Shown here piece after piece: positions 57,801 through 63,800 of a stretch of DNA of 64,000 nt. The translations under genes and the position numbers were made by a program. Below the pieces are notes generated by a model. The model searched no databases. It saw nothing but the letters and a program-made list of their open reading frames with translations, and was not told the DNA's origin. The stretch lies in assembly GCA_023053545.1 (NCBI GenBank), contig JAKZAN010000004.1, positions 8,246,001 to 8,310,000 on the forward strand. The letters run 5' to 3'. The stretch is from Lepidurus packardi. Taxonomy: Eukaryota > Arthropoda > Branchiopoda > Notostraca > Triopsidae. Positions within the stretch are counted from its first letter, which is position 1. Every line of letters starts with the position of its first letter.

Positions 57801-60800
57801 CCTCTTCGGGTACTTTGGAGTCGGATTGCTGCTCCAGCAATTTACGGTAGCGTTGTGTCCGACGGGCATTACGCGCGTCGTCTTCACCGTCGTCGTCGTT
57901 CTCAATCGCGTCTAGGTCGCGCAAAGGCCGGAATGCGCGGGCTCCGGCAGCCCTACGCGTCACAGGCGGCGTTTCAATGTTCTCGGAATCGATTTCGATT
58001 TTGTCATTGTAACCAGTATACTCCTCCGCTACGGCAGACGACAAAGCGCCCCGTGAGGTTTTGCGCATGCGTCGCGGAATCGAAGGTGGCAAAGGTCCAG
58101 CGGTATCTTCTTGAACTACCTCTGCTTGTTGTTGTGAGGGGGCAAGAGAAGAAGAAGACCCCGGCGAGTTTTTAATCGATTCAATAGTCCCGACCAGGTC
58201 ATTGCGGTCCAAGTTACTGATCAGTTTTTCTTGTAGTTTGGACCGCAGAGTATTGGGCGTCATGGTACGCTGGTATCGTTTTTTCTCCCGCTCACTGGCA
58301 GTAGAGTCCATGTGGCAGGTATTGGGAAACTTGGGCAACGGCGTGGGGCCTTCATGAGCTTCGCTAGGGTGTTCAAAATACGCCTTTTCTTTTTCCACTT
58401 CCTCAATGGTTTTGAGAATGTCTGTCGGCACATCCATGGATTGTCGGTATTTGTGGATCAAGCGAGAAGAAGCAGTATCTCCTGCTGTTGCAGCAGCCGA
58501 TTCATCGGAGCTCATAGGACCCCAGCTTTTCCGTCGTAAAGAAGGAGAAGAATTGGAAGCTGGAACACTGAGTTGAGGAGATTCTTTTAAGGGACTCGGC
58601 TCTCGGCTGAGAGTAACAGCCGGCGAAACAGCAGAGTTTTCTTCTTGGTCTGGCTGCCGTATGTACAGCGTTAATTTATCTTGAGAGGGCCGCCGTCCCA
58701 AGGAACCGATCATGGCCTTGCGCTGGTCTTGTTGACCCTAAATAGTAAAGAAATAAAATACAATTAAAACAAGTGTGGAAAAAATCATGGGCACTTCACA
58801 TTGTTTTTTTTTCGAAAGCAAAAGGGAGATAAAATAAGGAATGGAAACAGCTCAACCGTCACGCAGGATCTCAAGTCCATTTATTGTGTCATTTCTTTTT
58901 CCGAGTCCTCTTCACGTTAAAGTATTATTGTATGGGAGAAAAATACCTGCGGTTCCGCTGTCAACTCTTCGGTAGTATTTCGAGAAGGCACTCGTCGAGG
59001 ACGTCGATTTCCGTCACTGGATGCTTCATGGCTCATATTGAGATTGGACTTTCTCCAAGGAGTCCTGTTTTTGGTTGGCACAGCAGCGTCTATAATTACG
59101 AGAAACATATTTCAGATATAAAGAGTATTTACAACATTTGCAATCAAGAGTTCACGGCCAATGTCTTTTTGTTGGTCAGAAAGGTCAAGGTACATTGATT
59201 AGTCCATGTTTTTGCTCCTGTGCTATTATGGAATTCTTCGTAAGGTGAACCGAGATCACATCGGGTCAGGTGCCTAATTGCTTGAGGTGGTCAGAAGAAC
59301 AGTATAAATAGTAGGTCCTGGGCTGGGAAAAAATCAGACTCGGTCTTATCTTCAGCCAAGCACCAGCAAAGCAGCAAGAAGAGAAGAAGAACAACAACCA
59401 AACATGTGGAGTTTGGTCTTAGTAGCCTTTTCCTTGGTTTCGGCCAACCTGGCTCTTCCGACTGGTAAACATTTTGTTCCTTTTTTTGGGGCGGGGGCGT
59501 AATCTCTTCTTGTACGGTTTTATAATAAGGTTCGTTATTTAATACAGGAAGCGACGAGAAAGCCCTTTTCGAGTGTACCCAGAATGGCATCTTTCCCAAA
59601 CCCGGTTCTTGCGCAAGTTATTACATTTGTTTGGGAGGCAAATTCTTTGAAGACACCTGCCCCATCAGCCTCATCTTTGATCCCAAGACTAGCGCCTGTA
59701 ACTACCCTGATGTACTGAATATCGTCGGCTGCTCTGCTAAGGAGTTCTTTAACTTCACCTGCTCCGCTGATGCCAAGTCTTCCAGTCAACCGACTAGCCT
59801 TCCTTCGACCCTCCCGGCCCCGCCAGCTCCTCGTGAGACCGATACGGAAAAGTACTACTACACGTATCCGTACTACTACAGCTACTATTACTACTATCCA
59901 TACTACACCTACTGGTACTACTACTGGAGAAGCAGCCCCGAAGCAATGAACATCGACAGCTCGAAATCTTCCGGACCAACAAGCATTCCTGTCCACGCTG
60001 AACGAACCGTAAAGGAACCAAGCAACGCCTTTGAAGTTGAGGCCAACCGAATTTACTATTCTTATTATTACCCCTATTACTACTATTACTACTACCCTTA
60101 CTACTACTCGTACTACTGGAGGACAAATGACGTCGAAAAGTCTGGAGCTGGTCCTTTGCCTCCTATGGTTCCCCTGTCCCCACCCGCAGCTGCCCGTCGT
60201 GAAGGCTCCTCCGAAAAGACTGAAGAAACGGATCGCTACTATTCCTACTACTACCCTTACTACTATTACTACAACTACTATTGGTACTCTCCTTACTCCT
60301 TCTACTGGAGGAAGTCCGCTACCGAGAAAGCAGGTGGCCATATCCCTTCTCTTACTCCACCAGCACCTGGCCGTCGCGCAGGATCAACTGGAGGTAAAGT
60401 CGAAGACACTGACCGGTACTATTACGGGTACTATGGCTATTATCCTTACTATTATGGTTACTCGTACTACCCTTACTACTATTACTGGAGGAGCGGCGCC
60501 GCTGACCATGCTGAAGAGAAGGGAGCTATGCCCCCTATGTCCCCACCTGCTCTTCGCGAAGGACTTCCTATAAGAAGAACCGAAGGAGCTGACCGAGACT
60601 ACTACGATGGGTACTACTACGACGACTACTATGACTACGACTACTACTACATATGGAAAAATGGCGGCGCTAACCGTGGCAAAGAAAAAGGATCTATGCC
60701 TCATATGTCCCCACCTGCTCTTCGCGAAGGACTTCCCGAAAGAAGAACCGAAGAAGCTGACCGATACTACTACGGATACTACAACTACCCTTACTATTAT

Positions 60801-63800
60801 GGCTATTCCTACTATCCTTACAACTACTACTGGAGAAATGGTGGCGCTAACCAAGCTGAAGAAAAAGCTGCTATGCCTCCTATGTCCCCTAAAGCGCCTC
60901 ATGAAGGACACTCCGAACGAAACTCCGAAGAAACTGATCGATACTACTACTATCCTTACTCTTCTTATTACTACCCTTACTATTATAGCTATTACTACTA
61001 CCCTTACAGTTACTATGGGTACTACCGGGACGGTGCACCGAAGCCAGGATCCAACGAAGGATCCCGCACTACTCGAATGGCCCCTGTTCCCCGTCCTCGC
61101 CATGGAATGCCGCCCATGATCCCTTCCTCAGAACTGCGTCACCACGAAGTTGCCGGTGCGGACAAGGAGAGGACCCCGAGTTACGGTTACTATTACCCTA
61201 CCTACGGTTACTACCCTAGCTACTACTACTACTACTGGAGGAGCAATGGTGTCCAGCCAGAATCCGAGAAGATCGCCGACAGCAAGCGAGAATCGTCTTT
61301 CAGCGAATTCCAGTCCACCATGGAACACAGGTTCTTGAAAGAAGCCGGTACTTGCAGTTCTTACTACTACCTTTGCACGGCCAACGGTCAGCCTCGTTTG
61401 TTGTCCTGCCCACGCGATTTTGTATTCAACTTCGTTACAGGCAAGTGTGGAATCCGCACTGAAGTTGGAGGATGCAGAGATCCTTAAACAGCCTTGCATT
61501 TAAGTGTATTATTTAACTATTTTAATACTGCCCTGTAGTTATTGTCTTTAATTATTTAACGCTACCCTGGAGTTATTGATGAGTAGCAATAAAGATCCTT
61601 GAAAAAAAAAATCACTCGATTTCGTCTTACCTTCAATGGCTTCCATGGCTCCTACCACATCGGTACTTTCAATGGCTGGTCGCCAGGCTCGTCGCGTTTT
61701 CGATTCGGGAGAGACGATTTCCGGCAAGGGATCTAATCCTGGGCCTTTGAGACCGTTTTCTATGAAAGATGGTTTCGAGTTTCATGAAAATCCTTAAACA
61801 TCTGTAACTCTTGGAGAGTTCTCTCACTCAAAAGCTTGCTCATGAACAATACCTGGATCTCTGGAATCCAATTCTAGGGAACGTCGGTGTTCTTGTAAAC
61901 GTCGCCGAATTTCCTTCGCTTTGGATTCTTCTCGTTCTCGAGTGTCTTTGTCGCTGTCTTGGAGCCAGGCTTCGATCTTCTGACGCCAAGGTCTGCAAGG
62001 CAAACGAGAAACCCCACACAACACGTACAGCAGAGGGTAAAGCAAAAGAGAAAAAAAATCAGTTGAATGGTTCTCAAAGACAAGCAGACGCAAGACGAGA
62101 AGAAGGGAAAAACTAAAGGACCGCGTCCCCCCAAACTTCTAAAATGAAGCTTTATTGTGCCTCTAAAGGGAGGCGATATCAAAGAAAACTTTCAGCCCTG
62201 TAGTTTTTCTCTCTCTTAGGACGAGGTTAACCATCCATGTGTTTTAATTTCCAACTCCTTTAGTCTTAGGGTGTAGAACAGCAACAAAAAAGGCGCCAAG
62301 AAAGGATCAAAAAGTTATCTCCACCGAAAGTGCTGCTTCCAGGCCGGAATAAGAATTAGCGCATACTTTTGCCCATGTTCGCCTAAGTTGAAAACGTTTT
62401 CGGGTTCATCGGGTAGATCCCTTGCCATCTTATTAGTTGGCTTGATTTCTCAGAAGAGCATAAACCGTAAAATCTCTTTGGATCGAGCGGAACAGTAATG
62501 TTGGTAATTACGAAAGAGAAAACAATAGGAGAAATTGCCGCTTGGGTATAGATGTTCTGAGAGCGGGGTCAATAAAACGGGCACAAGTGTCTCCGCGACC
62601 TTAAAATGTACACACTTACCGAGATCGATGTTCGACATCGGACGAGGACAAATCGGACGGCATTCGTCGAAGCATCGCCGGGGAGGCTGTGGCAGAATGC
62701 GACCCTATGGAAACGCTCCCAAAGGACTCGTGACCGGGCGACGGCGTATTCAAATGTGACTGTTGTAGCTCCGGCACTTGAGAAACGCCGCCAGTGCCGG
62801 TGAAATCTGCACTCAGTAAATCGGGACGACGTTTGCCACCATTCAAGCCGGCCATACTGCCTCGGGATCTCCGTGCCCAGGACCGATCCAATGAGCCATA
62901 ACCGTCCACTTAAAAAAAGGACACCAAATGTCTTATACATTCAGCAACAATACGAAAACAGCATCTCGAGGTACAAAAGCTAACAGAAAAGAGGAGACGC
63001 AAAATGTCTCTCGCTTACTGATATTGCCCGTAGATTTGCGTTCACGTGAACCATCGTGACCTGCAGCACGCAAGTAGTCCATGAGCGACGCTTCATCTTC
63101 CTCGGATGGCACTCGGCTTCGACGTCGACGTAGTGTGCCATTGGGAGTCACATCCTCTGTAAAAGGACAACCCAGGCAGAGAAAAATATAAGCCACCCGC
63201 CCCAAGATCAGATTATTCCGCCATGAGACATATAGGTAAAGGTGAAAGGAGGGAGAGACTCGGAGCATAAATGACCTCGAAAATGACTCTAAAATTTTCT
63301 TTACCGGGGAGCATCAAAGACTCTTCGCGATTAAGTGACGCATTCAGGTCGGTGTTGGCGGCGGCAGCAACGGCCGCCGAGGGGTTCGAAAAGGAGCCAA
63401 GTCTTCGCCGGCTGAAGCGTGGGGAGCTCATCACAGCAGATTCGTCTTCAGAGCCAATTCCATTAGGAAGGTCCAAAGTGCTTTTCTTGCCTTTACGGCC
63501 CTATTTCACCACACGCATAGCACTTTTTATTGAAACAATCCCAGAAACGAAGAGGAGACAGAAAGAAAGAGCAAGAGAAAGAGGGAAAACTTATCTCTTA
63601 CCTTGTAGTCTTTGTCGCCGTTCTTCCGCATCTGGAAACCGGTGCGAATGTCGAAGAGCAAGGAATCCATAACATTGTTCTCCGATTCGGAACCGCTAAA
63701 AGAGCCTTGTTGCCCTGCTCGCCGGCCCCAATAGGATTACATTAGACAATATAGGAGAGTTTTAAATTAGCTTAAAACGGGAACAAGATCGGGGTAGTTT

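Follow-up and report, generated by a model that had tools for sequence, protein, structure and literature searches.

A 64,000-nucleotide stretch of the Lepidurus packardi genome (contig JAKZAN010000004.1, positions 8,246,001–8,310,000 of the forward strand), termed here the window, carries at positions 59404–61487 a predicted gene for a protein with a long tyrosine-rich region between two groups of cysteines. The questions raised by this locus are how the tyrosine-rich region is attached to the chitin-binding modules next to it, and from which type of gene such a protein may have come. A sequence-only reading had placed chitin-binding modules at both ends of the protein. Matches to a chitin-binding profile are found at both ends, but the topology appears to be wrong, as the first cysteine of the C-terminal module appears to be Cys92, which lies before the repeats. 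The C-terminal cysteine module is thus best read not as a separate domain; the tyrosine repeats appear to be an insertion inside one chitin-binding (ChtBD2) domain, the equivalent of domain 3 of the CPAP3/obstructor proteins.

A chitin-binding domain probably split by an insertion

The Pfam profile CBM_14 matches the product twice, with 52.1 and 33.1 bits, both above the cut-off of 22.1; nothing but CBM_14 is found in the product by Pfam up to E = 1. The N-terminal match (profile positions 1–48, 52.1 bits) falls on a complete six-cysteine ChtBD2, Cys30–Cys82, at positions 59574–59732 (+ strand). This is the equivalent of CPAP3 domain 2, and the six-cysteine domain had been recognized in the sequence-only reading. 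The C-terminal match covers profile positions 11–53 only. It corresponds to positions 61353–61475 (+ strand) and holds cysteines two to six of a domain, i.e. Cys623, 630, 641, 654 and 663.

The six-cysteine spacing is present in the first domain, and in the second only if Cys92 (positions 59760–59762, + strand) is taken as Cys1, 530 residues before Cys2. Cys92, the seventh cysteine of the protein, aligns with Cys1 of domain 3 in paralogs of the same genome. Its sequence context is hydrophobic, FNFTC, and the paralog contexts are FHFTC, LHFTC, LEFHC, IDFEC and similar. The number of cysteines is even (7 + 5 = 12), with none in the insert. Because the C-terminal module lacks a Cys1 of its own, and its Cys1 is Cys92 ahead of the repeats, the repeats are placed inside one domain.

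In the ChtBD2 fold, cysteines pair as Cys1–Cys3, Cys2–Cys6 and Cys4–Cys5, and tachycitin, Avr4 and chitinase domains are similar (PMC10619976, in excerpt, as are the other papers cited here by PMC number). From the Cys1–Cys3 pairing, Cys92 and Cys630 should form a disulfide that would close a loop of 537 residues. An AlphaFold2 prediction from the single sequence of exon 2 shows the insert without regular structure except for a short helix at 587–594, with low confidence throughout.

When domain 2 (59574–59732) is compared with solved structures, the best sequence match is 6g9c, the C-terminal domain of an “Immunomodulatory active chitinase” (E = 8.5e-11); human chitotriosidase ranks behind it.

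The gene and its product

The gene consists of two exons on the + strand, 59404–59464 and 59548–61487, which together give a single open reading frame of 666 amino acids. Exon 1 encodes the signal-peptide-like sequence MWSLVLVAFSLVSANLALPT and the first base of a glycine codon. It is followed by a phase-1 intron of 83 bases with GT-AG ends (59465–59547), and a phase-1 intron is present at the matching place in two paralogs. Exon 2 (59548–61487) includes the stop codon. This gene structure, the intron included, is the one that the sequence-only reading had proposed. The N-terminus MWSLVLVAFSLVSANLA resembles a signal peptide, as judged by eye, and the product is probably secreted, in line with the earlier suggestion. 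The 666 residues include 131 tyrosines and 12 cysteines.

The open frame of exon 2 is 645 codons long, as compared with a maximum of 168 amino acids among 300 composition-matched Markov sequences. Motif scans show a TATA box, TATAAAT, at 59303–59309 (+ strand) and the sequence TCAGAC at 59334–59339 (+ strand), which is initiator-like (Inr-like) by the arthropod Inr consensus; this places a putative transcription start near 59336. The two motifs are 31 bases apart and upstream of exon 1. Across the window, TATA and Inr motifs are paired in this way once on the + strand and at two overlapping positions on the − strand (3022 and 3024), against an expectation of 0.03 per strand (30 Markov sequences). 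A poly(A) signal, AATAAA, is at 61588–61593 (+ strand), 101 bases beyond the stop codon. Judged by its sequence, the 59404–61487 locus appears to be a real gene.

The tyrosine-rich region

The insertion between Cys1 and Cys2 of the split domain (59763–61352, + strand) is 530 residues long and contains 125 tyrosines (24%) and no cysteine. It has eight tyrosine blocks of 19–29 residues each, with 58%–74% tyrosine, and a YWR motif closes six of the eight; eight blocks mostly ending in YWR is also what had been described from the sequence alone. The blocks that end in YWR are block 1 (59853–59930), block 2 (60054–60122), block 3 (60237–60311), block 4 (60417–60491), block 6 (60765–60836) and block 8 (61182–61241). 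Block 5 (60600–60656) is Asp-rich and ends in YIW before a lysine (YIWK), and block 7 (60942–61028) ends in YYR; all eight are on the + strand. The linkers between blocks are rich in Pro, Ser, Glu, Ala, Gly and Arg. The central units, each a tyrosine block plus a linker, form a tandem repeat with a period of 168, 3.1 copies and 72% matches (60401–60950, + strand).

No further copies of the tyrosine array were found elsewhere in the 108.6 Mb genome with the two patterns YYYPYYY and YYYYWR. All four occurrences of YYYPYYY are in the window gene. YYYYWR occurs six times, twice in the window gene; the other four lie in stop-to-stop frames of 156, 13, 73 and 18 amino acids, and none of these has more than a single run of 4–5 tyrosines. 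A protein search of the genome matched only the ChtBD2 ends elsewhere (query positions 2–88 and 602–635), in which the low-complexity filter may hide the tyrosine part.

On the − strand, positions 59535–61127 display Val/Ile-rich shadow frames opposite the tyrosine blocks, with two stops in 645 codons. An antisense gene in these frames was considered, but their Val/Ile richness is what complementing TAC/TAT codons must give.

Related genes in the same genome

The CBM_14 profile yields at least 118 matches in the genome at E = 0.001. Among the loci read, 11 genes, including the window gene, carry the CPAP3/obstructor pair of domain 2 and domain 3, and a twelfth is on contig C6 (C6:5096k). In all 12, domain 3 opens with a cysteine in a hydrophobic setting; the second cysteine occurs mostly as DC, followed by [RQ]..[FY]..C. 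In domain 3, the gap from Cys1 to Cys2 is 19, 19, 21, 21, 22, 22, 23 and 24 residues in eight of these genes, with 0–1 tyrosine, and by a likely splice it is 23 residues in C6:5096k. Inserts enlarge the gap in three genes: to 65 residues (13 Tyr) in a gene on contig C1 (C1:9331k), 79 residues (9 Tyr) in a gene on contig C3 (C3:8322k) and 530 residues (125 Tyr) in the window gene.

C1:9331k (C1:9331187–9331900) is modeled as 202 amino acids with two domains, domain 1 being absent. As in the window gene, a signal exon and a phase-1 intron precede one exon that holds domains 2 and 3. Its insert ends in DIYWKRDG, which is close to the ends YWRSGA, YWRNGG and YYRDG of the window blocks, and may resemble a single-unit ancestor of the tyrosine array. 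Its domain 2 has lost both Cys1 and Cys3, a joint loss that the Cys1–Cys3 pairing predicts. TATA and TCAGTC signals of its own are also present in C1:9331k.

C3:8322k (C3:8321954–8322924) lies ~16 kb downstream of the window gene on the same strand and has three domains; its last exon, and hence the sixth cysteine of its domain 3, depends on the acceptor chosen. Domain 2 of the window gene matches C3:8322k (E = 7e-13) and a gene on contig C6, C6:304k (E = 1e-11).

Two three-domain CPAP3-type genes are arranged head to head at C6:302510–304741, each with all three domains in one exon. In the CPAP3-type gene at C6:5096798–5097050, an apparent intron separates Cys1 from Cys2 of domain 3, at the position of the insert in the window gene.

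Descent of the window gene

Comparison within this genome supports common descent of the window gene with the CPAP3-type genes: domain 2 gives the matches above, and the domain 3 motif is shared. CPAP3 proteins have three ChtBD2 domains and small conserved linkers. The window gene has two such domains, there is no room for domain 1 in exon 1, and domain 3 contains a 530-residue insertion. As it departs from CPAP3 in both respects, we do not count it as a member of that family and regard it as a derived offshoot. The best reading of the window protein is that it branched from the CPAP3/obstructor lineage. The ancestor would have had three ChtBD2 domains, of which domain 1 was lost and domain 2 stayed intact. 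In domain 3, a tyrosine-rich insertion between Cys1 and Cys2 would then have been amplified to about eight block and linker units.

Trees of 12 genes, built from the sequence flanking the insert with the insert itself left out, unite the window gene with C1:9331k and C3:8322k, to the exclusion of the remaining nine. The support, as approximate likelihood ratio test (SH-aLRT) and ultrafast bootstrap (UFBoot), is 95.2/92 with WAG+G4 and 94.3/91 with LG+G4. Gene structure agrees with a pairing of the window gene and C1:9331k, since both lack domain 1 and have the same phase-1 signal exon; C3:8322k keeps domain 1.

Several results weigh against the proposed descent and structure. The trees are short and have long branches. 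When the clade of insert-bearing genes is broken in two alternative ways, the approximately unbiased (AU) test rejects one (p = 0.038) and keeps the other (p = 0.094), and the Kishino–Hasegawa (KH) and Shimodaira–Hasegawa (SH) tests reject neither. A tree from domain 3 only joins the window gene with C1:9331k but not with C3:8322k. The loci read come from 53 overlapping sources, the window included, and cover part of the at least 118 CBM_14 matches. The mean predicted local distance difference test score (pLDDT) of the AlphaFold2 model is 34.5, which is uninformative on the Cys92–Cys630 bond. Some ChtBD2 domains, those of EHEP and Der p 23, do not bind chitin (PMC10619976).

Proposed function and alternative explanations

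The suggestion that the tyrosine-repeat protein is a chitin cross-linker is plausible. We consider it fairly probable that this offshoot of the CPAP3 lineage is anchored to chitin and carries a disordered loop rich in Tyr and Arg, which condenses and becomes oxidatively cross-linked, a resilin-like logic in an unrelated sequence. The two ChtBD2 domains would hold chitin in the matrix, and a Cys92–Cys630 bond would staple both ends of the insert to one chitin-binding module. The tyrosine region would hang from it as a closed disordered loop, neither a tail nor a spacer between modules. The tyrosine-rich blocks ending in Trp-Arg, together with charged Pro/Arg/Glu linkers, could condense by means of aromatic and cation-pi interactions. 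Peroxidase or phenoloxidase chemistry would then join tyrosines of neighboring loops by dityrosine or quinone links, to give a cross-linked chitin-protein network in the cuticle or in an egg or cyst envelope. What the sequences show is the gene with its domains, the site of the insertion and the series of paralogs; the Cys92–Cys630 disulfide, loop disorder, condensation driven by Tyr, Trp and Arg, oxidative cross-linking on chitin and the tissue are all inferred.

A more specific proposal is offered tentatively, and we would sooner expect it to need revision than to stand as worded: ChtBD2 may act as a disulfide staple for a giant closed loop of tyrosine polymer, a resilin-like chitin-anchored cross-linker that evolved stepwise within the CPAP3 lineage by an insertion into a domain, with the stages (22 to 65–79 to 530 residues) still present in this genome. 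If true, a structural family has gained a cross-linkable polymer by growing one loop in a disulfide-closed module, with no new domain. The protein would also offer a natural way to hold a curable Tyr/Arg polymer on chitin by both of its ends. Since two relatives have shorter tyrosine-rich inserts, the evolutionary path is testable.

The two cysteine modules might also be independent chitin-binding units, like beads on a string, that flank a tyrosine-rich spacer. The C-terminal module would then fold without Cys1, and Cys92 would be free or form an intermolecular bond. The C-terminal part alone exceeds the Pfam cut-off (33 bits), and domain 2 of C1:9331k shows that a ChtBD2 without the Cys1–Cys3 pair can exist. 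That domain, however, lost Cys1 and Cys3 jointly, whereas the window gene keeps both Cys92 and Cys630, and a cysteine is present at the Cys92 position in all 11 CPAP3-type genes aligned; we consider the beads-on-a-string arrangement unlikely. We also doubt that the tyrosine region is adhesive or eggshell/cyst material acting by 3,4-dihydroxyphenylalanine (DOPA) chemistry and surface adhesion, and not a cuticle cross-linker. An extreme tyrosine content (24% of the insert) would suit DOPA adhesives, and the host, a branchiopod, may have resting eggs. Mussel foot proteins, however, have short Lys/Gly-spaced repeats, which the tyrosine blocks lack.

It is very improbable that the region is a (TAC)n low-complexity expansion within a gene undergoing decay, with the tyrosines as functionless products of slippage. 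Short TAC-rich tandem arrays are present, and just two stops interrupt the 645 codons of the complementary frame, which points to repetitive codons. However, the frame is intact, both domains have all expected cysteines, promoter-like and poly(A) signals are present, and the tyrosine codons are mixed (TAC/TAT = 100/31), the longest pure TAC run being five units. In addition, the proportion of synonymous differences (pS) exceeds that of nonsynonymous differences (pN) between linkers. For the pooled repeat units pS is 0.72 and pN 0.34, in a protein-guided alignment that itself favors pS over pN. Three gap-free linker alignments give, in the real frame, pS of 0.27, 0.56 and 0.40 with pN of 0.15, 0.22 and 0.22. 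In the +1 frame, pN exceeds pS in all three pairs. The +2 frame and antisense frame 0, however, also give a pS higher than pN in some pairs, so that the linker evidence is moderate. A pseudogene or microsatellite artefact is rejected in view of the intact reading frame, the mixed codons, the pS/pN values of the linkers, the promoter-like and poly(A) signals and the existence of paralogs.

The host intron and other observations

The gene had been described as nested antisense in a formin intron, and this agrees with the reading of splice sites and frames. A host intron on the − strand (59090–61630, GT-AG, 2,541 bases) encloses the whole nested gene, including its promoter-like signals and AATAAA, and removal of 61630–59090 joins two open exons in frame. 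An FH2 match of 64.4 bits, above cut-off, lies just beyond the window edge on the host strand at 65658–65951 (window scale), and a second, of 23.9 bits and below cut-off, at 65081–65185. As these matches are on the same strand just past the edge, the host gene appears to be a formin, with the flanking exons and FH2 presumably parts of one gene.

A search for COX1 gave three stop-free matches on small contigs (C52, C214 and C43) that look bacterial (contaminant or symbiont). Many of the matches on C1, C2, C4, C5, C6, C21 and C38 carry TGA, and these resemble nuclear mitochondrial copies; COX1-like nuclear copies translate well with the invertebrate mitochondrial code and look crustacean.

Comparison with known systems

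A tyrosine-rich CPAP3 or peritrophin-type chitin-binding protein with the intra-domain arrangement was not found in searches of open-licence papers. A limpet shell proteome mentions tyrosine-rich proteins, a chitin-binding domain and peritrophin, but for different proteins.

Squid beak histidine-rich proteins are likewise disordered tyrosine-repeat proteins, in which tyrosine clustering drives or stabilizes coacervates, with Arg/Tyr pi-cation models mentioned (PMC6884462). The squid proteins have His-triggered GHGXY repeats, whereas only 10 of the 530 residues of the window insert are His. The chitin-binding partners of the squid proteins are distinct proteins.

Resilin is cross-linked by dityrosine and needs a chitin-binding domain (PMC7737337). 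Pro-resilin resembles the window protein in that disordered repeats bearing tyrosine, the sites of cross-linking, are joined to a chitin-binding domain. However, pro-resilin uses an R&R domain flanked by the repeats, and the window protein uses ChtBD2 with the repeats inside it; tyrosines outside the domain number 36 in pro-resilin, as compared with 125 in the window insert. The R&R domain (chitin_bind_4) is not found in the window protein by Pfam up to E = 1, and because of this the protein is not considered a resilin.

EHEP, with three peritrophin-A domains (PADs), has the ChtBD2/PAD fold and the cysteine pairing taken here as the model for the window protein (PMC10619976; PDB 8in3), but it is without a long insertion and does not bind chitin.

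The closest likeness in backbone is to the pancrustacean CPAP3/obstructor/gasp proteins (PMC3504105, PMC5799365), which act in the cuticle of beetle and crayfish and share with the window protein ChtBD2 domains with aligned cysteines and, judging by its N-terminus, probably a signal peptide. The domain 2 and domain 3 signatures are common to the window protein and the three-domain paralogs of the genome. CPAP3 proteins have three ChtBD2 domains with small conserved linkers, in contrast to two in the window protein, domain 3 being split by 530 residues. The statement that no named family was known with exactly this architecture is fair; it does not extend to the backbone, which appears to be that of the known CPAP3/obstructor lineage.

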